Source: Histomonas meleagridis
Taxonomy: Eukaryota > Parabasalia > Tritrichomonadida > Dientamoebidae
DNA length: 64,000 bases
Assembly (NCBI GenBank): GCA_020186115.1
Contig: WSYJ01000138.1
Coordinates: 186,001-250,000 of the forward strand
Direction: 5' to 3'
A program made the translations under genes and the position numbers. This document shows, piece after piece, positions 13,853 to 43,736 of this stretch. The first letter of the stretch is position 1. Every line of letters starts with the position of its first letter. Below the pieces are notes generated by a model. That model did not search any database and had not been told where the DNA came from. It saw nothing but the letters and a program-made list of their open reading frames with translations.

Positions 13853-13938
13853 CAGAAAGGCCACAGTTTCATTCAATTAGGGCGACCGTTTTGCCAAAAG
13901 TGGCATGTTCAAGCTTAACGGTCCGCATAGTTATTCAT
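13853..13938. promoter_or_regulatory. divergent promoter RPS5 / DUF3447, two AACGGTC elements
   Basis: This 86-bp spacer carries AACGGTC on the minus strand (GACCGTT, 13884-13890), about 32 bp upstream of the RPS5 ATG. It carries TAACGGTC on the plus strand (13916-13923), 15 bp upstream of the DUF3447 ATG. Each gene thus has its own copy pointing at it. The element resembles the Myb-like M3 core-promoter motif that I recall for T. vaginalis. Confidence 0.5.
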
Positions 13939-15117
13939 ATGGAAGTATCCTCAAATGAATTAATAGTTTTTCCACCAGAACTTAAAAAAATGGAAAACAT
14001 TGTTTTTGGTTTATCCCAGGATAATATTCAGGAATCTGTTGAATCAATTTTTAAATTTATAGATAGAAATTTTTTACGTTCTTATAATCTTATTATTTGT
14101 CAATTAGTTTATTCATTTCTTGTTGCAAGAAAAGTAGATAACTTATATATTAATTTTGATTTTTTAAAAGCGATTGAAATGAAAGAAAATTCTATAATTT
14201 TAAATCAAAAATATATCAAAATAACAGTTTTATTTGGTATGTATCTTTGGCTGCTACCTACACAAGAAGCATATTATATTCTTGAGAAGATGTCTTATGA
14301 ACATATTATTCCACCTGAAACCCTTAGGAAACATAAATCTAATCATTTTGCACATTATAAATCTAAAGAAGAACTCAAAAGAAATGCATTTTCCCTTCAT
14401 CAACTCCAACTGGATAATTTTAAGCAATTTAAGTCGTTAATTCATGAAGGTGTTAATCCTTTAACAGTTGCCCGAATAATTCGAAATGATGAAATCGAAA
14501 AACTTCAAGAAATATCATCACAGACAAATTTTGATATTAATCAAACTATTGAGCCATCATTTTATGAAAGATGTTCATTTATTAACAAAGAAAATGTTAC
14601 ATTAATTGATTATGCAGCATTTTTTTCAGCGGTCAAATGTTTTAAGTATTTATTAGAAAAAGGCGCTAACGTATTAAATACAGGTAAATTAGCAATTGCA
14701 GGTGGAAATAATAAAATTATTAAACTTTGCATAAAAAACCATTCATCTTTTAAAGGGTCATATGAATCTTCAATTAAATTTCACCAAAATGAAATTTTTA
14801 AATATCTTTATAAAACAAAAATCAGAAAGGATATTGATTTTAAGAAATTATTTAGAAAATGTGTTAAAAATAACAATTATGAAATCCTTTCTTATTTGGG
14901 ATCAAATGGTTATCAAGCTTGTAATATTGATGATGATTTGATTTATGAAATAGCATCGAATGGAAATATATTTCTCTTTAAAAGTTTAATAAGTGTAAAG
15001 CAAATTCCAAAAGATATTTTGGTTTATGCTTCAAAATCGATTAATACAGAACTTCTAAAGTATATCCTTCAACAAAAATTTGATATAAATGAAAAAGATG
15101 TTTATTTGTTTTATTAA
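13939..15117 (+). CDS. DUF3447/ankyrin-family protein
   Basis: 392 residues from the ATG at 13939 (MEVSSNELIVFPPEL). The N-terminal helical domain (about 20-180) is followed by the family core: RIIRNDEIEKLQEISSQTNF, FYERCSFINKENVTLIDYAA and the ankyrin-like KCFKYLLEKGANVLNTGKLA. A last in-frame ankyrin-like unit follows (TELLKYILQQKFDINEKD), and the frame closes after KDVYLFY. Nine further ankyrin units continue downstream, each behind a stop-containing linker, so the annotated protein may be truncated or may be the first exon of a longer one. The function of the family is unknown. A 150-bp stretch around 14476-14625 is nearly identical to the gene at the left edge of the window. It is divergently paired with RPS5. 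Confidence 0.75.
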   Translation: MEVSSNELIVFPPELKKMENIVFGLSQDNIQESVESIFKFIDRNFLRSYNLIICQLVYSFLVARKVDNLYINFDFLKAIEMKENSIILNQKYIKITVLFGMYLWLLPTQEAYYILEKMSYEHIIPPETLRKHKSNHFAHYKSKEELKRNAFSLHQLQLDNFKQFKSLIHEGVNPLTVARIIRNDEIEKLQEISSQTNFDINQTIEPSFYERCSFINKENVTLIDYAAFFSAVKCFKYLLEKGANVLNTGKLAIAGGNNKIIKLCIKNHSSFKGSYESSIKFHQNEIFKYLYKTKIRKDIDFKKLFRKCVKNNNYEILSYLGSNGYQACNIDDDLIYEIASNGNIFLFKSLISVKQIPKDILVYASKSINTELLKYILQQKFDINEKDVYLFY

Positions 15118-15180
15118 AATTTCGTTTTAGTTCCTTAAAATTTTATAAATATATTTGGAATTTATTTGTTTTTTTTTCGA

Positions 15181-16375
15181 ACAGCGCTTTATGTTGCATC
15201 TTCGAAAGGAAATATTGACGTAGTTAAATTTCTTCTCGATCAAAATGGAATCAATGTTAATGCAATACGTGGATATTTTGATTATGGTGTTTGTTAAAAA
15301 TATTCGAAACAGCACTTATTAAAGCAATTTGCAAGCATCACACTGGCGTTGTGAAGTTACTTCTTAAACAAAATGGGATTAATGTTAATATTCAAAATAA
15401 GATTTATTTTGGAAACACAGAGTTTCGTTTAAAAACATTACTGGACAGCATTAAATGTAGCTACTCGTTATAATAATATAGAAATTGTTAGAATGTTACT
15501 TGAGAACCAAGATATTGATGTTAATCTTTGGAATGTTTACTTTTTATTTTTGAATTTTGTTAATTTATCATAACATCTCATGTTTTATTTTTATGTTTGC
15601 AAATTTTATTTGATACACCACTTATGGAAGCTTGTGGTTTTGGATATTTTGAAATTGCCAAAATGCTTCTTGAGCATGAAAAAATTGATATTTATAATGA
15701 AAATATCCATATAATTTGTTATATGTATATAAATATATTTTGATGTTTAAAAATGATTAAAGGAGTTAAATAATAATTAATAGAACAGCATTTGTTATGG
15801 CATTAGCTTTAGGTTTTAATGATATTTTTAAGTTGTTTCTTAAGCATAAAGATTTTAACGTAAATACTAAAACAAATAGGATTTATTCATTATATTTCCT
15901 TTACTTGTTGTAGCTTCTGAATGTGGAAATAAGGAGGGTGTTCAATTACTTTTAGAACAAGGGGAAATTGATATTAATGATAAAGATATTTGTTTTTTTT
16001 ATTTGAAATTTATTTTAATAATTTTATATTTCAAAATAATATTTGGAAATTATTTAAATTATTTAATACCGCACTTATATGGGCATCTTGTAAAGGTCAT
16101 ACAGAAATAGTTAAATTACTTCTTAAACAAGAAGGAATTGATATTAATGCTAAAAATATTTATTTGTTTTATTTAAAATTTATTTAGATAATTTAAGATT
16201 TCAAAATAATATTTGGAAATTATTTAAATTATTTCAAACAGCATTTAAATTAGCATCTGAAAATGATCATACAGAAATAGTTGAATTACTTCTTGAACAC
16301 AAACAGCAATGAATTATGCGGCCAAAAATAATCACATAAAAATCGTTGAAATGCTTAAGCAATATCAACAAAAAT
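15181..16375 (+). other. array of nine ankyrin units separated by stop-containing linkers
   Basis: This continues the gene at 13939. Units start with Thr-Ala/Ser/Pro codons at 15181, 15309, 15445, 15615, 15785, 15898 (degenerate first two codons), 16068, 16238 and 16303. The first seven are 90 nt (30 codons) and read as ankyrin, e.g. GHTEIVKLLLKQEGIDIN. The last ends in a normal family C-terminus (KIVEMLKQYQQK, stop at 16373-16375). Linkers are 81, 38, 46, 80, 80, 23, 80 and 80 nt, with no linker before the last unit. All stops and frame changes lie in linkers. The 3' boundary reads ACAG in only about half, so standard AG splicing does not fit every case. This is either a decayed 3' part of a gene or an exon-per-repeat structure. 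Confidence 0.7.
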
Positions 16376-16551
16376 AATTTGTACAAATTCAAAATAAGAA
16401 TCATAAGAAATATTTAGCAAATAGTTTTTTACCATTTTACAATCTAAACTAATAATAAAGAGTAAAACATTTTTTTTCATTAATTATTTTTATATATTTT
16501 TGATATAATCATATGGAAAAAATTATAAAACAACCTCCAAAAATTTTATAT

Positions 16552-25421: not shown

Positions 25422-26543
25422 ATGAGCATTCCAAATGAGAGGGAATCACTTCAATTAGCCATAAAAATAATTACCAATCTAAATCATGAAAATATTAGTC
25501 AGTCAACACTTTCAATAACCAATTTATTTGATAAAAATTATAATTACTCTTTTGATTTTATTATTAGCCAAATGATATATTTTTCATTTAATGCTTTTAT
25601 TAACGATTCTGATACATGTTTAAATTTCATCAAGGAATTAGAAAAAATTGAAGAAGTTAATAAATCCAAAAGGAAAATATTTGATATATTTGCACAAATA
25701 ATTTTAAATAAAAATACACAAGAATCATATTATTTAATTAATAAGATGGTTAAAGAAAATTTAATTGAATTAAATATAATTCAAAATTTGAAAATTCCAT
25801 ATTTTGTCCATTATTTATCAGATGACGAAATTAAAAAAATAATTCAAAAAGAAGAAATTAATAACAACCACGAAGAACTCCTTAAGAATAATTGGGAACT
25901 TCATAAGAAATTAATTAAAGAAGGAGTTAATCCGAATGAAATTGCAAGAATAATTCGAAATGATGAAATAGAAAAACTTCAAGAAATATCATCACAAACA
26001 AAATTCAATTTTAATCAAAAAATTATACCATCACTTTATGAAAGATGTTCATTCATTAACAAATTCCCTATTTCACTTATTAGTTATGCAGCATTTTTCG
26101 GATCAATTCTATGTTTTAAATATTTACTTATGAATGGCGTTAAAGTTTATAAAACAGGTAAATACGCTGTTGCAGGTGGAAACATTGAAATCATTCATTT
26201 ATGCGAACAGAATCATTCATCATTTGAAGGTGCATACGAAATTGCAATTCAATTTTATAGAAATGATATCTTTAAATATCTTTATGAAAACAAATTAGGA
26301 AAAATTCGTGATTTAACAAAATTGGGGAAAATGTGCATTTTATATCATAACTATGAAATACTGACATTCTTAGAAGAAGAAGGTATAAATGTTGACTCAT
26401 CTTTTATTAGTGAGTCAGCAAAAATTGGAAATATATTTCTTGTAAAGTATTTACTTGAATTTCATTTTATTGGATGCAGGAAATTCAGGAAATTTCGAAC
26501 TTGTGAAATATATTTTAGAACTAAATGTAATCGATATCAATGA
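25422..26543 (+). pseudogene. DUF3447/ankyrin-family gene, frameshifted near its 3' end
   Basis: The intact frame encodes 373 residues (MSIPNERESLQLAIKIITNL). It has the N-terminal domain, the core RIIRNDEIEKLQEISSQT, FYERC-like LYERCSFINK, KTGKYAVAGGNIEIIHLCEQ and GNIFLVKYLL. After about 26463 the annotated frame becomes unrelated (CRKFRKFRTCEIYF). The +1 frame from 26464 restores family sequence (ILLDAGNSGNFELVKYILEL, then VIDIND), equivalent to ILVYASKSINTELLKYIL in the gene at 13.9 kb. So there is a one-base insertion (or two-base loss) at about 26460-26470. Downstream ankyrin units continue to 27184. Family function is unknown. Confidence 0.75.
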
Positions 26544-26604
26544 TATTTATTCGTATTGTTTGATGTTTCAAAATAATATCTAAAATTTCTCGAAATTTTT
26601 TAAT

Positions 26605-27184
26605 ACAGCACTTATTTTAGTATCTAAAAATGGTCATACAGAAATAGTTAAATTACTTTTACAGCATAAAGAAATTGATATTAATAATAAAACTAAAATT
26701 TATTATATTAATTTGATATTTCATAATAATATTTGGAAATTATTTCATTTATTTAAAACTTCACTTATGTTTGCATCTCTTAGTGGCCGTAAAAAAATCG
26801 TTAAATTATTACTTCAACATGAAAAAATTAACATAAATGCACAAGATTTTTAATCATATAATTTAATATTTGAATTAATGTATTAATATTTAAAAAGAAA
26901 ATTTAGTAATTGTTTTCAATATTTAAAACATCGTTGATTTTTGCAACTGAAAATAGTAATAGAGAAATAGTTAAATTACTTCTTAAACATAAAGATATTG
27001 ATATTAATATCAAAGATATTTTTAATGAACAATTAAAAATTATTTAAATGATTTTGGATTTCAAAATAATATTCGAAAATTATTCCCCATATTTTGGACA
27101 GCCATTACGTATGCAACAGAAAATTCTGATGATGAAATATATGAAATGCTTCATGAAAAACAAGAAACAGTTAATAAAATGTAA
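26605..27184 (+). other. four ankyrin units separated by stop-containing linkers
   Basis: Units begin at 26605, 26758, 26928 and 27098. The first three are exactly 90 nt and read as ankyrin, e.g. NGHTEIVKLLLQHKEIDINN. The last ends in a normal stop at 27182-27184. Linkers before them are 60, 63, 80 and 80 nt (26545-26604, 26695-26757, 26848-26927, 27018-27097) and contain stops. Three of the four share the core TTTCAAAATAATAT or a close variant with linkers of the array at 16.0-16.2 kb. Same architecture as the array at 15.2 kb. Confidence 0.7.
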
Positions 27185-27261
27185 ATATTCCAAATAAACA
27201 AATTTTTACATGTAAATCTTTTTGACTATTTTATGAATTTCGTTTTTTGGGAATAGCAAAC

Positions 27262-29564
27262 AACAAATGACAACTTCCCTCCAGTGCATTTACGACAAAT
27301 GACAACTTCCATCCAGTGCATTTACAACAAATGACAACTTCCATCCAGTGCATTTACGACAAATGACAACTTCCATCCAGTGCATTTACAACAAATGACA
27401 ACTTCCATCCAGTGCATTTACAACAAATGACAACTTCCCTCCAGTGCATTTACAACAAATGACAACTTCCATCCAGTGCATTTACGACAAATGACAACTT
27501 CCATCCAGTGCATTTACAACAAATGACAACTTCCCTCCAGTGCATTTACAACAAATGACAACTTCCCTCCAGTGCATTTACAACAAATGACAACTTCCCT
27601 CCAGTGCATTTACAACAAATGACAACTTCCCTCCAGTGCATTTACAACAAATGACAACTTCCCTCCAGTGCATTTACAACAAATGACAACTTCCATCCAG
27701 TGCATTTACAACAAATGACAACTTCCCTCCAGTGCATTTACAACAAATGACAACTTCCCTCCAGTGCATTTACAACAAATGACAACTTCCATCCAGTGCA
27801 TTTACAACAAATGACAACTTCCCTCCAGTGCATTTACGACAAATGACAACTTCCATCCAGTGCATTTACGACAAATGACAACTTCCATCCAGTGCATTTA
27901 CGACAAATGACAACTTCCATCCAGTGCATTTACAACAAATGACAACTTCCATCCAGTGCATTTACAACAAATGACAACTTCCATCCAGTGCATTTACAAC
28001 AAATGACAACTTCCCTCCAGTGCATTTACAACAAATGACAACTTCCCTCCAGTGCATTTACGACAAATGACAACTTCCATCCAGTGCATTTACAACAAAT
28101 GACAACTTCCATCCAGTGCATTTACAACAAATGACAACTTCCATCCAGTGCATTTACGACAAATGACAACTTCCATCCAGTGCATTTACAACAAATGACA
28201 ACTTCCATCCAGTGCATTTACAACAAATGACAACTTCCCTCCAGTGCATTTACAACAAATGACAACTTCCCTCCAGTGCATTTACGACAAATGACAACTT
28301 CCATCCAGTGCATTTACAACAAATGACAACTTCCATCCAGTGCATTTACGACAAATGACAACTTCCATCCAGTGCATTTACAACAAATGACAACTTCCAT
28401 CCAGTGCATTTACAACAAATGACAACTTCCCTCCAGTGCATTTACAACAAATGACAACTTCCATCCAGTGCATTTACGACAAATGACAACTTCCATCCAG
28501 TGCATTTACAACAAATGACAACTTCCTCCAGTGCATTTACAACAAATGACAACTTCCCTCCAGTGCATTTACAACAAATGACAACTTCCCTCCAGTGCAT
28601 TTACAACAAATGACAACTTCCCTCCAGTGCATTTACAACAAATGACAACTTCCCTCCAGTGCATTTACAACAAATGACAACTTCCCTCCAGTGCATTTAC
28701 AACAAATGACAACTTCCCTCCAGTGCATTTACAACAAATGACAACTTCCCTCCAGTGCATTTACAACAAATGACAACTTCCATCCAGTGCATTTACAACA
28801 AATGACAACTTCCCTCCAGTGCATTTACGACAAATGACAACTTCCATCCAGTGCATTTACAACAAATGACAACTTCCATCCAGTGCATTTACGACAAATG
28901 ACAACTTCCATCCAGTGCATTTACAACAAATGACAACTTCCATCCAGTGCATTTACAACAAATGACAACTTCCATCCAGTGCATTTACAACAAATGACAA
29001 CTTCCCTCCAGTGCATTTACAACAAATGACAACTTCCCTCCAGTGCATTTACAACAAATGACAACTTCCCTCCAGTGCATTTACAACAAATGACAACTTC
29101 CCTCCAGTGCATTTACGACAAATGACAACTTCCATCCAGTGCATTTACAACAAATGACAACTTCCATCCAGTGCATTTACAACAAATGACAACTTCCCTC
29201 CAGTGCATTTACAACAAATGACAACTTCCCTCCAGTGCATTTACAACAAATGACAACTTCCCTCCAGTGCATTTACAACAAATGACAACTTCCCTCCAGT
29301 GCATTTACAACAAATGACAACTTCCATCCAGTGCATTTACGACAAATGACAACTTCCATCCAGTGCATTTACAACAAATGACAACTTCCATCCAGTGCAT
29401 TTACAACAAATGACAACTTCCATCCAGTGCATTTACAACAAATGACAACTTCCATCCAGTGCATTTACGACAAATGACAACTTCCATCCAGTGCATTTAC
29501 AACAAATGACAACTTCCATCCAGTGCATTTACAACAAATGACAACTTCCATCCAGTGCATTTAC
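27262..29564. repeat. 32-bp minisatellite, 72 units
   Basis: The unit is AACAAATGACAACTTCC plus A/C plus TCCAGTGCATTTAC. The array is 2303 bp, which is 72 x 32 minus one base; one unit near 28525 lacks a C. Only two positions vary: A/G at the first base and A/C at the eighteenth. Every unit that starts with G that I read carries A at the second site, so only three of four combinations occur. 32 is not a multiple of three and each unit has TGA, so it is not coding. There are no spacers, so it is not CRISPR. It fills the gap between the third DUF3447 locus and the C2 gene. Confidence 0.97.
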
Positions 29565-29746
29565 GACACCTGAATGAAGCACTTTGATCGGCTGCTCGAA
29601 GTGAAGACAATTAAATGATGAAGTACTTACACCAAAAGTGACATACATTCAAACTGAATTGTCGGGGTACCCTTAAAAAACAGATAATTATCTATTTTAA
29701 TTAAAATCGTACTTGGAACTTTTACTAGCAAGCATAGTATAGACTT
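29565..29746. other. spacer with GC palindrome
   Basis: 180 bp between the minisatellite and the C2 gene stop. GGGGTACCCT at 29664-29673 is a near-palindrome of the class listed elsewhere. Nothing else. Confidence 0.4.
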
Positions 29747-31576
29747 TTACCTGCCTTGTCCTGGTTGACTTGGTTGGCCTGGCATTCCTGGGTATTGCTG
29801 ACCTGGCATTCCTGGATACATTTGTTGGCCTGGATATTGTTGTCCCGGCATACCTGGGTATTGTCCTGGTTGACCCGGCATACCTGGGTATTGTTGACCT
29901 GGCATTCCTGGAGCTTGTCCTGGTTGTCCTGGCATACCTGGAGCTTGACCTGGCATTTGTGGAGCTTGACCTTGTGATCCTGGCATTCCTGGAGCTTGTC
30001 CTGGTTGTCCTGGCATACCTGGAGCTTGACCTGGCATTTGTGGAGCTTGACCTTGTGATCCTGGCATTCCTGGAGCTTGTCCTGGTTGTCCTGGCATACC
30101 TGGAGCTTGACCTGGCATTTGTGGAGCTTGACCTTGTGATCCTGGCATTCCTGGAGCTTGTCCTGGTTGTCCTGGCATTCCTGGAGCTTGACCTGGCATT
30201 TGTGGAGCTTGACCTGGCATACCTGGTGCTTGACCTGGCATTCCTGGAGCTTGTCCTGGTTGACCTGGCATACCTGGAGCTTGACCTGGCATTCCTGGAG
30301 CTTGTCCTGGTTGACCTGGCATTCCTGGTGCTTGTCCTGGTTGACCTGGCATTCCTGGAGCTTGTCCTGGCATACCTGGTGCTTGACCTGGCATTTGTGG
30401 TGCTTGACCTGGTTGTCCTGGCATACCTGGTGCTTGACCTGGTTGACCTGGCATACCTGGTGCTTGACCTGGTTGTCCTGGCATACCTGGTGCTTGACCT
30501 GGTTGACCTGGCATTCCTGGAGCTTGTCCTGGTTGACCTGGCATTCCTGGTGCTTGACCTTGTGATCCTGGCATACCTGGTGCTTGTCCTGGTTGACCTG
30601 GCATACCTGGAGCTTGACCTTGTGATCCTGGCATTCCTGGAGCTTGTCCTGGCATTTGTTGACCTTGAGATCCTGGTTGTCCTTGCATTCCTGGATACAT
30701 TTGTTGATTTGGATATTGTTGTCCTGGCATTCCTGGATACATTCCTGGTTGACTTGGTTGGCCGGGACCTGGTTTACCTGGTTGTTGACCTGGCATTCCT
30801 GGTTGCATTCCTGGGTACATTTGTTGTCCTGGCATTCCTGGATACATTTGTTGATTTGGATACATTCCTGGTTGACTTGGTTGCCCTGGTCTGCCTGGTT
30901 GACCTGGCATTCCTGGTTGCATTCCAGGGTACATTTGTTGACCTGGCATTCCTGGTTGCATTCCTGGATATTGACCTGGATATTGGCCTGGGTATTGACC
31001 TGGATACATACCTGGTTGTCCTGGCATTCCTGGTCTGCCTGGTTGACCTGGCATTCCTGGTTGCATTCCAGGGTACATTTGTTGACCTGGCATTCCTGGT
31101 TGCATTCCTGGATATTGACCTGGATATTGGCCTGGGTATTGACCTGGATACATACCTGGTTGTCCTGGATATCCCATTCCATGAGGTTGTGGAGTATTAA
31201 CAAATGGTTGGGCACCTCTTGGTGCAAGGTGAATAAGTACGTGAAGTCTGCCTCCTTTTTTGACCTTCCTAGCTGGTGTCATTTGGATCCATTGATCATT
31301 AAGTTGTCCTACCCTCAAGCTGCCAATTTGGATATTTGTTTCAGAGATTGGATCATCCTTGAATGCATCCTTATCTTTCATTGTGATTTTAAGTGAGCCA
31401 CTTGCTGTATTTAATGGGAAATGGAATTCTTCATTCCATCTTGGTGTCATAGAATTTTTAATAACGCGTGTCTTTCTTGTTTGGCCATTAAAAGTGAGGA
31501 TGCAGTAGGCATCAGTAGCATTAACATCCATCCTTGGGATGTCAAGAGCTTCGATAATTCGAACGTGAAGTTCCAT
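29747..31576 (-). CDS. C2 domain protein with a long Pro-Gly-Met-Gln collagen-like tail
   Basis: 609 residues. The N-terminal C2 domain is about 1-122: [52 protein letters not shown], then [14 protein letters not shown]. Acidic loop residues (Asp in DVNATDAY and KDKDAFKDD) fit Ca2+-dependent phospholipid binding. From about 125 to the end are imperfect repeats of [23 protein letters not shown] and PGQYPGQY type. C2 plus Pro/Gly-rich tails occur in large numbers in trichomonads, probably as peripheral membrane proteins; function unknown. There is no signal peptide, so it is not secreted collagen. The tail DNA is itself a repeat, which leaves several other frames open. The ATG is at 31576. Confidence 0.85.
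29760..31190. repeat. coding tandem repeat (PGQ tail of the C2 protein)
   Basis: Degenerate in-frame 9-, 15- and 30-bp repeats of GGTTGACCTGGCATACCTGG type. A longer duplication of about 190 bp repeats the whole [16 protein letters not shown] module (around 30880-31010 and 31030-31160). GC content is much higher than in the surroundings. Expansion and contraction in frame are expected. Confidence 0.85.
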
Positions 31577-41306: not shown

Positions 41307-43736
41307 TTACATTTGTTCTATAAATTTTTCTTCCTTGAAATCGTCTGCAAATGGATCTTCTTCAATGTTTGAAATAGAAATCCCTGTTGTGAATGTATTT
41401 GTAGTTTCATTTTCTTTTTGTTCTGAGGTATCATTTTCATTAATTTCTACTTTTTTGTTTCGAATACGGATTAATAATACAATAAGTAATGATATTATAA
41501 TAATAACTACAACAGTAACACAAACCGCAATAATTATTGTTATTTTATTGTCTTTAGTATGTGATTCATCCATGAAAAACATTGTATAGAAATCAGAATA
41601 ATAATTATAATATGTTGTATAAATAACTATAGTATAATTATAAAAAATAAATTCTGTTTCAATATAAATATTTGATGAATTATTTATAAGGAATGAAAAT
41701 GATTTTGTTTGAGTTGTATAAACAGTTACTGAACATGAAATAGTTAATGATATTGTTAATGTATATGAAAAAGATAAAGTTATATCACTATTAAATATTG
41801 ATTCAGTAAATGTGTTTGAATGTGTAAATGTATTTGTTTTAACAAATGAACTTGATTGTGAAAATATATTTGAATATGTAAATTTTGATTCAGTATATGT
41901 ATTAGAATGTGTGAGTGTATTTGATTGTGTAAATATGAGTGTCAGCATTGGTGCACATCCTTCAATGGTTTCTATGCTAATGCCTAAATTTCCAAAAAAT
42001 TTGTCTTTGTATTCGTTTAATACCATAACAAATATTGAAGCATTGATAAAGGCATTTGCCTCAATGCTTGGCTCTTGTGTTCCATAAAAATAAATACATT
42101 GTAACTTTTGACAATATCCAAATGCATAACCTCCGATTTCTTTTACATTTTCACCAATTATAACATTTTCTAAATTGCTACAATTATAAAAAGCATAACC
42201 TCCAATTGATGTAACTGAATTTGGAATTGTAATATTATATAACTTTGTACAAGATGCAAATGCAGAACCTCCGATTTCTTTTACATTTTCACCAATTATA
42301 ACATTTTCTAAATTGCTACAATTATAAAAAGCATAACCTCCAATTGATGTAACTGAATTTGGAATTGTAATATTATATAACTTTGTACAAGATGCAAATG
42401 CAGAACCTCCGATTTCTTTTACACTTTCGCCAATTATAACATTTTCTAAATTGCCGCAATTATAAAAAGCAGAACTTCCTATTGATGAAACAAATTTGCC
42501 AATGCAAACATATTTTAGTAAAGGCCATTCACTAAATTCATCACCTGGAATCGAAAAATTTCCATTTACAAAAACATTAACTGTTGAATTATAATATGCG
42601 ACTGTAAAATCATTTTCATTAAATATCAAAAGTGTATTGTTTTCATTGATATATATTTGAAATGTGTTGGTAAAAAATAATATAAAAAGGAATATACAAG
42701 AATTTGTTTTAGCTCGTTTTAGTTTCAAATAATATTTTGTGAAAAATAAAATCAAAGCAATAAAGAATATTATAACAAAACATTTAATCAAATTCAAAAT
42801 AAGATGAAAGATTTTTGAACTTATAATATTACAAATGGAGATTTTAAGACACTTTAAAGCAAATTTAGAATACAAGTCTCCAAATTTAATTGAAAAAATA
42901 TTGATGCTAACATTTTTTATTCGTAATTTAGAATTAACTGTTAACATATATAAGAAAGAACCTTTTGTAAATGGATAGTATTGAGTGAGGAAAGAATGTA
43001 ATAAATTTGGATTGTTTTTTGCAATTAAAATATATTTTGGATTGAGTTCATTTGGCACAGAAATCAAAAGTGACCATTTTTCTTTATTAAATTTTTGAAT
43101 TGAATTGAAGAGTTCTAAAATACCGATAAGTTCGGTTTGTTTGTTTTTTGTTGTTGTCACTTCACCAGCTGTAAAGTTTTTCTGTGGTTGAATTGTGTTT
43201 TGATGTGAAAATTTGACAGAAACTGATATTTGCATTGAAAAAATTGAAATAAAAGAAAGTAACGCATTGAATTTTGTTTGGTTTTCTTGTGCAAAACAAT
43301 CATTGAGTAAAAAATGCATGAAATCAGCATAAAACAATGCTGAATCATTAGGGCTATTAATAGCTATCTGAGCGAGTGCACTTTTTCCAGTAAGAGTCTT
43401 GGAATTTAAGATATCTATATGTAAATATGTTGAAATAAAAATTGGCTTGAGATGAAAATCAAAATGCCACAACGACATGCGTTGACTTAAAGCGAATGTT
43501 TTTGGAGAAAAATGGTTTTGAAATTGTGTTTGTTGAAATTTGGTTACATCAATGTTCATCTTGTTAAATTCCAAAGTTGATATCTCTGATTTATGTGTTA
43601 TATAATATGGGATCTTAGTGTTATTTTTATGTATTTTAAATATGACTTTTGGATGAAAAAATGATGATTTATGGTTTATATTGTTCATAATTATGTTGAT
43701 AGAAACCAAAATGATTAGGAAACATGGTTTTCGCAT
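41307..43736 (-). CDS. BspA-like leucine-rich-repeat surface protein, with an unusual N-terminal region
   Basis: 809 residues. An N-terminal hydrophobic stretch (MRKPCFLIILVSINIIM) may be a signal peptide. About 20-310 is a region I do not recognise. Two membrane-like segments follow (about 315-340, CFVIIFFIALILFFT; and 347-358). Then come BspA-type LRR_5 repeats (about 400-545, NVKEIGGSAFASCTKLYNIT and NSVTSIGGYAFYNCSNLENV), a Ser/Thr-rich stalk (SNTFTHSNTFTES type), one C-terminal membrane helix (about 730-757, ITIIIAVCVTVVVIIIISLL), and a charged tail ending near SNIEEDPFADDF. DPF is an AP-2-binding type endocytic motif. BspA-like proteins are abundant in trichomonads and linked to surface adhesion. 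The second hydrophobic pair just before the LRRs could be the original signal peptide of a separate BspA gene now fused in frame. Confidence 0.8.
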   Translation of the reverse strand: MRKPCFLIILVSINIIMNNINHKSSFFHPKVIFKIHKNNTKIPYYITHKSEISTLEFNKMNIDVTKFQQTQFQNHFSPKTFALSQRMSLWHFDFHLKPIFISTYLHIDILNSKTLTGKSALAQIAINSPNDSALFYADFMHFLLNDCFAQENQTKFNALLSFISIFSMQISVSVKFSHQNTIQPQKNFTAGEVTTTKNKQTELIGILELFNSIQKFNKEKWSLLISVPNELNPKYILIAKNNPNLLHSFLTQYYPFTKGSFLYMLTVNSKLRIKNVSINIFSIKFGDLYSKFALKCLKISICNIISSKIFHLILNLIKCFVIIFFIALILFFTKYYLKLKRAKTNSCIFLFILFFTNTFQIYINENNTLLIFNENDFTVAYYNSTVNVFVNGNFSIPGDEFSEWPLLKYVCIGKFVSSIGSSAFYNCGNLENVIIGESVKEIGGSAFASCTKLYNITIPNSVTSIGGYAFYNCSNLENVIIGENVKEIGGSAFASCTKLYNITIPNSVTSIGGYAFYNCSNLENVIIGENVKEIGGYAFGYCQKLQCIYFYGTQEPSIEANAFINASIFVMVLNEYKDKFFGNLGISIETIEGCAPMLTLIFTQSNTLTHSNTYTESKFTYSNIFSQSSSFVKTNTFTHSNTFTESIFNSDITLSFSYTLTISLTISCSVTVYTTQTKSFSFLINNSSNIYIETEFIFYNYTIVIYTTYYNYYSDFYTMFFMDESHTKDNKITIIIAVCVTVVVIIIISLLIVLLIRIRNKKVEINENDTSEQKENETTNTFTTGISISNIEEDPFADDFKEEKFIEQM
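42110..42445. repeat. 138-bp repeat inside the BspA LRR region
   Basis: A 46-codon pair of LRR_5 units occurs about two and a half times, nearly identical at DNA level (e.g. GATGCAAATGCAGAACCTCC at 42255 and 42393, a 138-bp spacing). Recent duplication or homogenisation within the gene. Confidence 0.8.

Follow-up and report, generated by a model that had tools for sequence, protein, structure and literature searches.

Putative non-canonical introns between the ankyrin repeats of a large DUF3447-ankyrin gene family in Histomonas meleagridis

Introduction

How can a gene be built of intact repeat units when the spacers between them carry stop codons and shift the reading frame? This question is raised by a locus of Histomonas meleagridis, a poultry parasite belonging to the Parabasalia. 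The locus lies in a stretch of 64,000 nucleotides (nt), here called the window (assembly GCA_020186115.1, contig WSYJ01000138.1, positions 186,001 to 250,000 of the forward strand), the coordinates of which are used below. At 13939-16377 the window has a DUF3447-ankyrin gene in which, according to a unit profile scan, a DUF3447 frame is followed by eight units of the 30-codon type and eight linkers. A preliminary description of the window proposed that the linkers are intron-like elements, one per repeat, or sites of programmed recoding, or else the product of very recent inactivation. Our analyses indicate that the gene belongs to a large DUF3447-ankyrin family in which, with a probability that we put at roughly 0.6, ankyrin repeats correspond one to one with exons of about 31 codons, the linkers between them being putative phase-0 introns that leave the RNA, a reading that is derived from sequence comparison.

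Results

Layout of the window gene

The DUF3447 domain and the first ankyrin part lie at 13939-15099 on the plus strand, as does the rest of the gene, this segment running from the first ATG of the open frame to the last codon ahead of linker 1. Pfam analysis of 13930-15114 gave matches to DUF3447 (E-value 5.3e-8, 33.1 bits, cut-off 26.9) and Ank_2 (4.3e-9, 37.2 bits, cut-off 27.3); the curated cut-offs being passed, the window gene is a member of the DUF3447/ankyrin repeat family. Linker 1 (15100-15180, 81 nt), delimited by reading of the sequence and its open frames, is a putative intron apart from its last codon, and is located inside a 107-nt direct repeat (15070-15176) with copies at 15958-16064 (72%) and 16128-16234 (73%). 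The unit scan places ankyrin unit 1 (30 codons) at 15181-15270, unit 2 at 15309-15398 and unit 3 at 15445-15534, these being separated by two linkers of atypical length, linker 2 (15271-15308, 38 nt) and linker 3 (15399-15444, 46 nt). Linkers 4 (15535-15614) and 5 (15705-15784), either side of unit 4 (15615-15704), are both 80 nt long and are putative introns, the family data pointing to 15535-15611 and 15705-15781 as the most likely borders. Unit 5 (15785-15874) is separated from unit 6 (15898-15987) by linker 6 (15875-15897), again of atypical length at 23 nt. Linkers 7 (15988-16067) and 8 (16158-16237), which enclose unit 7 (16068-16157), are putative introns of the common 80-nt type, with the conserved 3' block, TTTGGAAATTATTTAAATTATTT, located at 16042-16064 by block search in linker 7 and at 16212-16234 from the direct repeats in linker 8. 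The last in-frame unit (16238-16312; open frame and unit scan) has 24 codons and a TGA stop, and is overlapped out of frame, with no linker, by a second terminal-type ankyrin unit (16303-16377; sequence reading). The 3' end of the gene looks rearranged.

Scan and reading together reproduced exactly the linker lengths given in the preliminary description (81, 38, 46, 80, 80, 23, 80 and 80 nt), and stops and frame changes are indeed confined to the gaps between units of this gene. The further claim that the units stay open for exactly 30 codons holds for seven of the eight, the eighth stopping after 24. The linkers at 15535-15614 and 15705-15784 had been described as barely alignable with each other, which is borne out by 32 shared letters of 80 (shuffled 29.2, standard deviation 3.7), and each shares 43-44 of 80 letters with two later 80-nt linkers (shuffled 31.9-35.0).

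A family of related linkers across the genome

We searched the assembly of the H. meleagridis virulent strain (43,276,120 bases in 121 contigs), the GC content of which is 28.66% (PMC8529796). Searched with a 170-nt unit-plus-linker of the window, the genome gave at least 189 matches and phage records none. Genome searches with the unit protein and with DUF3447 each gave 150 scored matches, of 2394 and 1695 candidates, respectively. With up to two mismatches, the 23-nt 3' word TTTGGAAATTATTTAAATTATTT has 4383 genome copies (2178 + 2205), compared with four (2 + 2) for the reversed word. Within the fetched loci, which were chosen for ankyrin similarity, an ankyrin unit follows 361 of 381 copies of the block (up to three mismatches), in 357 cases at one offset. 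We found no paper on these linkers in the open-access literature, a coverage that excludes subscription papers and preprints.

For gap counts, 61 of the 71 fetched loci were used, ten overlapping loci being omitted, and 58 yielded gaps. Of 535 gaps between adjacent units, 51 were dropped because of weak anchors or a length outside 54-90 nt, leaving 484 linkers, which are related copies and not independent. Weights were applied in the stop counts, consensus, stem search, entropies, triplet usage and the analyses of diverged columns and variable codons, and in the counts of 5' offsets and TTTGG distances for motif building only; plain counts are unweighted. The profile used to find units penalises stops within units, not in the codon ahead of a unit.

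Exactly 80 nt is the length of 381 of the 484 anchored gaps, and 89 of the remaining 103 have 63, 83, 81, 66 or 60 nt. Equal linker length is not chance, though the copies are related, as had been argued from the conserved 80-nt spacing in the window. The lengths other than 80 nt fall unevenly by remainder modulo 3 (74 with 0, 26 with 2 and 3 with 1; n = 103), 79 nt never occurring and 81 nt occurring 13 times; whole-codon changes at the exon edge explain the rarity of remainder 1 only partly, and again the copies are not independent.

Which parts of the arrays are coding

Stop codons were counted per position in the 381 80-nt linkers, with weights, the expectation being that of independent columns. 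The codon directly ahead of the unit has no stop where 21.4 are expected (unweighted, 0 of 484), and the variable codon 5 of the unit has 0.0 against 21.3 expected (unweighted, 1 of 381, in locus L009). Codons in the final third of the unit before the linker are likewise free of stops, with up to 5.8 expected. In the linker interior, stops are near expectation in every frame (15.0 versus 17.6 expected at codon +2, and 15.1 versus 16.4 at codon -3). From these counts the translated stretch would be the unit plus the codon ahead of it, perhaps with up to two triplets on which the counts are uninformative, ATT at the start and TTT at the end of the linker. Like an intron, then, the linker interrupts a coding frame and, as judged by its stops, is itself untranslated. 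The +1 triplet is ATT in 89% of cases, compared with 60% of Ile codons in units, and the -2 triplet is TTT in 96%, compared with 82% of Phe codons in DUF3447 frames and 79% in units; this stricter usage favours fixed signals over codons.

These results bear on where the borders lie. Of the proposal of one intron per repeat, spliced in phase 0 with boundaries near Lys-Asp/Lys-Asn and Thr-Ala, the phase and the Lys-Asp/Lys-Asn boundary fit the genome-wide data best, whereas the 3' boundary was one codon off. The ACAG that had been considered as a splice acceptor is instead Thr-Ala coding sequence, coding beginning one codon ahead of Thr-Ala, because that codon is stop-free in 484 of 484 gaps. 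An exon remainder of four codons (I-Y-F-x) in the linker was considered and dropped, since codons +2 and -3 have stops at about the expected rate; the relative P0003, discussed below, has four residues there. Translation of the 63-nt linkers was dropped in view of an in-frame stop in 9 of 25 such linkers.

Programmed recoding would leave the linker in the mRNA, with ribosomes bypassing it or shifting frame. The linker lengths do fall mostly into two frame classes, as the remainders of the 103 gaps of other lengths show, and 16 of the 25 63-nt linkers are open. We nonetheless consider translational bypass or programmed frameshifting very unlikely, because linker stops are near expectation in every frame, no covarying RNA stem was found among the 381 80-nt linkers, and the linker consensus, in our own reading of it and not copy by copy, has no matching in-frame take-off and landing codons.

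Nor does it seem at all probable that the linker is translated, as an inserted long loop of some 27 residues that contains errors. The downstream frame is open in many copies, its last 20 codons being stop-free in 153 of 257 different 80-nt linkers. Against this, 80 is not a multiple of three, stops are near their expected frequency, and the linker lacks clear 3-base periodicity, the entropies of the three base positions being 1.05, 0.99 and 1.05 compared with 1.09, 0.67 and 1.11 in units.

The ends of the arrays were read in 45 cases. In 17, the final unit has its own in-frame stop 19-28 residues in (e.g. ...EIVKLLNEKGDN*); 26 read past residue 30, mostly into the next linker, and 2 have no stop in the stretch read.

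Linker anatomy

Our reading of the linker consensus has 77 letters, RTTTATTTRTTTTATTTRAWATTTATTTTAATAATTTNATATTTCAAAATAATATTTGGAAATTATTTAAATTATTT, and is followed by the variable codon; it starts with RTTTAW and ends with TTATTT. The GG of TTTGG forms the strongest columns when the comparison is limited to the 54 most diverged linkers, and L35-L37, L41-L44, L17-L19, L61, L63-L64 and L1-L3 (L, linker position) are among the others well above background. The distance from the first G of TTTGG to the unit is 23 nt in 337 of the 359 80-nt linkers with the motif (22 of 381 lack it) and in 86 of 100 motif-bearing linkers of other lengths (10 of 110 lack it). With this 3' distance kept, length changes would be mostly on the 5' side of the linker. 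Giardia introns have an invariant distance between branch point and 3' splice site (PMC6679479).

In linkers of other lengths the offset of the 5' motif is divisible by three in 62 of the 79 that score (of 103), or in 29 of 46 with a non-zero offset, which fits an exon edge gaining whole codons. That linkers of 63 and 80 nt differ by 17 nt was considered as a sign of a unit length and set aside, because a deletion sparing one codon explains it equally well.

Splice signals and splicing machinery

Ordinary GT-AG splicing fits the linkers poorly. For 29 of 484 linkers, GT-AG borders can be placed within 15 nt of both edges so as to keep the frame and avoid stops, compared with a mean of 22.6 (16-34) in 20 rounds of shuffling. 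A variant in which GT-AG spliceosomal introns have misplaced signals, e.g. with GT eight bases into the linker, could draw on the GT present at L9-L10 in 51% of the 381 linkers (unweighted), and on a U2 gene and a U6 match with the usual boxes (GTAGTA and ACAGAGA). It is nevertheless highly improbable: no pair of columns close to the 3' end, other than in the Thr-Ala codons, shows AG in more than 7.1% of linkers; the 29 linkers with a solution, against a mean of 22.6 in shuffled ones, include 19 of the commonest type (GT at L9, AG one base ahead of the unit); and codon +2 is not coding. In 362 kb of sequence searched for canonical-looking introns, we found none of the Trichomonas vaginalis type and three loose matches.

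The U2 gene scores 80.5 bits (cut-off 46) and the U6 match 43.7 bits, just below its cut-off of 44; at loose E-values, sub-threshold matches to the U2 and U6 families also appeared in two and seven, respectively, of 14 control genomes. Prp8 is named in the H. meleagridis proteome (PMC10063853).

Selection on units and linkers

Relative to synonymous change in units, linkers diverge at 0.78-1.08 times the rate. The ratio of nonsynonymous to synonymous differences (pN/pS) in units is 1.93 in the closest class (61 pairs), then 1.22 and 0.97, falling to 0.75 in distant pairs. The six most variable codons are that ahead of Thr and those at unit positions 5, 8, 9, 12 and 28; in these, pN/pS is 1.83 for pairs less than 10% apart, dropping to 1.12. 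In the other 25 codons it is 0.84, 0.68, 0.62 and 0.70 across the four distance classes. The codon ahead of Thr and positions 8 and 9 correspond to positions randomised in designed ankyrin proteins.

Another explanation is that the arrays are untranslated past the first unit, the DUF3447 frame alone being the gene and the downstream repeats being relics or silent cassettes kept alike by recombination. Consistent with it are the pN/pS of about one or more in close pairs, the lengths of two annotated H. meleagridis relatives, which are just 421 (P0014) and 428 (P0013) amino acids, the 38-, 46- and 23-nt linkers and overlapping double end of the window gene, and the frame change ahead of the units in a second window gene (see below). 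On the other side, silent arrays would not be expected to keep the codon ahead of the unit free of stops in all 484 gaps, or codon 5 in all but one of 381; the nonsynonymous excess is limited to the most variable codons; and 17 of 45 arrays end with the last unit's own in-frame stop. On balance we regard untranslated arrays as unlikely. The related suggestion of recent inactivation fares differently at the two levels: the missing stops and the arrays' own ends speak against it for the family, and it may hold for the window gene.

Relatives and junctions

The closest relatives are 40-49% identical; the 19 proteins listed were all examined, and 13 (P0001-P0012 and P0015) extend to the end of the equivalent unit. 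Six of these (P0004, P0006, P0007, P0009, P0010 and P0011) terminate one residue, Ile or Val, past Lys-Asp or the corresponding residues, and thus imply a stop at codon +2. In P0003 there is an uninterrupted second unit (...KN-VMFE-SALM...), with the four residues VMFE in the linker's place. Pattern matches to relatives of P0003 in genome contigs (21) and of P0017 in viral contigs (6) were in no case confirmed. The annotated H. meleagridis DUF3447 protein P0014 has a long Asn-Pro-rich repeat insert.

In the DUF3447/ankyrin protein P0017 (TRFO_07820) of Tritrichomonas foetus and the relatives P0034-P0038 there is, as in H. meleagridis, a break at the equivalent hairpin after Asn-x-Lys-Asn/Asp. 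P0017 and P0034-P0037 continue with Val-Cys, Val-Ser or Val-Phe, which from the protein letters may be read as a GT start, and P0038 with Ile-Phe. Unlike the H. meleagridis linkers, the Tritrichomonas-type break is at an earlier repeat in the alignment (which does not include P0035). An intron at the same position in Tritrichomonas was therefore dropped as an interpretation, the position being analogous.

Other features of the window

A second DUF3447-ankyrin gene was identified by unit scan and Pfam at 25422-27184 (plus strand). Its units are at 26461-26550, 26605-26694, 26758-26847 and 26928-27017, with a terminal unit of 28 residues plus stop at 27098-27184, and the gaps between them are 54, 63, 80 and 80 nt. 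The minus strand holds a third DUF3447 frame at 181-1149 (Pfam DUF3447, 2.7e-8), of whose downstream sequence just 180 nt fall within the window. We saw nothing in the DUF3447-ankyrin genes that marks a toxin or known virulence factor.

Directly downstream of the second ankyrin gene is a 32-bp satellite (27260-29568; about 72 copies, 97% match). At 29725-31576 there are GC-richer, repeat-rich open frames of 476-609 codons on both strands, with periods of 21, 30, 51 and 81 bp, and at 41307-43736 on the minus strand a BspA-type leucine-rich repeat gene (LRR_5) with a 138-bp tandem repeat. Nearby genes of the window are eukaryotic (ribosomal protein S7/S5 and TFIIB by Pfam).

Discussion

The explanation that we favour is that the linkers of this family are putative introns, each ankyrin repeat being its own exon. 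Such an exon would comprise the variable codon before Thr-Ala-Leu and 30 codons through Lys-Asp/Asn. The intron would be short, AT-rich, of phase 0 and most often 77 nt long. It would start with RTTTAW, vary in its 5' part and close with a block of fixed length, TTTGGAAATTATTTAAATTATTT, immediately ahead of the variable codon. Taking the linker out of the RNA ahead of translation would join the repeats in frame, such that the 170-nt exon-intron unit can duplicate or vanish with the protein unbroken. Removal at the RNA level, the spliceosome as its agent and the exact borders (a 5' cut at L0-L5 and a 3' cut at L73-L77 of an 80-nt linker) are what we infer from sequence patterns; RNA removal would be the simplest account of coding units, untranslated spacers that break the frame, a 3' block of fixed length and gene ends that are in frame.

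Several observations weigh against linkers being introns, or against the borders that we propose. At L1-L2 of the 381 80-nt linkers there is AT in 317 and GT in 30, and at L76-L77 TT in 344. Ile 24 of the unit uses ATT in 85% of cases, nearly as strictly as the +1 triplet, so that the usage of the latter is not proof of signals. Eighteen of 376 units bear a stop, though by weight nearly all of these are at codons 20-30, as expected for terminal units. The four junction residues of P0003 are more than the stop counts permit here, and the outermost borders would give a 31-residue repeat without the usual hairpin xxG (glycine turn). In the fetched loci there is no intronless repeat pair of the family, and a genome search for intronless junction words gave 0 and 1 hit, the latter (C77:137677) in a locus that is not an ankyrin gene. 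The pN/pS values near or above one in close pairs could, taken alone, also reflect relaxed constraint. The T. vaginalis 3' motif ACTAACACACAG occurs three times in the genome, compared with two for the reversed control, and is not in the linker consensus; given its near absence from the genome, the ordinary introns of H. meleagridis probably differ too. U1 was not found in the genome with the Rfam model RF00003, and the published annotation, made with a transcriptome-trained AUGUSTUS, lists 573 introns and no gene with more than one (PMC8529796). As to the window itself, the first gene, with three odd linkers and a doubled end, may be a partly decayed member of the family; in the second gene, the DUF3447 frame and the next ankyrin unit overlap in different frames at 26461-26543, a frame change inside an exon that would be either decay or an assembly error.

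Comparison with known intron systems reveals partial likenesses. The spliceosomal introns of T. vaginalis and Trichomonas stableri are, like the linkers, parabasalid and short, with a 3' signal of fixed length, and three of the intron genes listed for these species are ankyrin genes (PMC12316389). All 63 introns of T. vaginalis are of the GT-AG type, and in them branch site and 3' motif are fused (PMC12316389); H. meleagridis differs in having thousands of copies of the block, RT...TTT ends, no ACTAACACACAG-type motif and many linkers per gene. Euglenid nonconventional introns share non-canonical borders with the linkers, but RNA structure brings their ends together (PMC4770533), and no such pairing was detected here. 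The non-canonical introns of diplonemids and the invasive intronic elements of Amoebophrya are likewise abundant in protists (PMC12621601, PMC7789003), whereas the linkers appear to have spread with their ankyrin unit, at one repeat position. Introner elements occur in many unrelated genes; here nearly all block copies precede an ankyrin unit, in loci that were chosen for ankyrin similarity.

We tentatively suggest, as a more specific proposal that we hold at somewhat less than even odds, that H. meleagridis, which has been described as poor in introns, has in a single diversifying ankyrin family more than 4,000 non-canonical introns with RT...TTT borders and one repeat per exon, in which a 3' block of fixed length is recognised instead of an AG-fused branch site, and which are copied with their exon as a 170-nt module, letting ankyrin repertoires grow and recombine in frame. 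If the linkers are not spliced, a large family would still be left in need of explanation, one whose repeat arrays are subject to coding constraint and have untranslated spacers between the units. If they are spliced, H. meleagridis would have several thousand introns in place of the 573 now annotated (PMC8529796), the majority bounded by ends for which standard gene finders do not search. Thousands of copies sharing their exon edges would offer exceptionally good material for asking how a spliceosome, or some other machine, locates introns that lack GT-AG, and introns would in this family act as joints at which a repeat repertoire can grow in frame.

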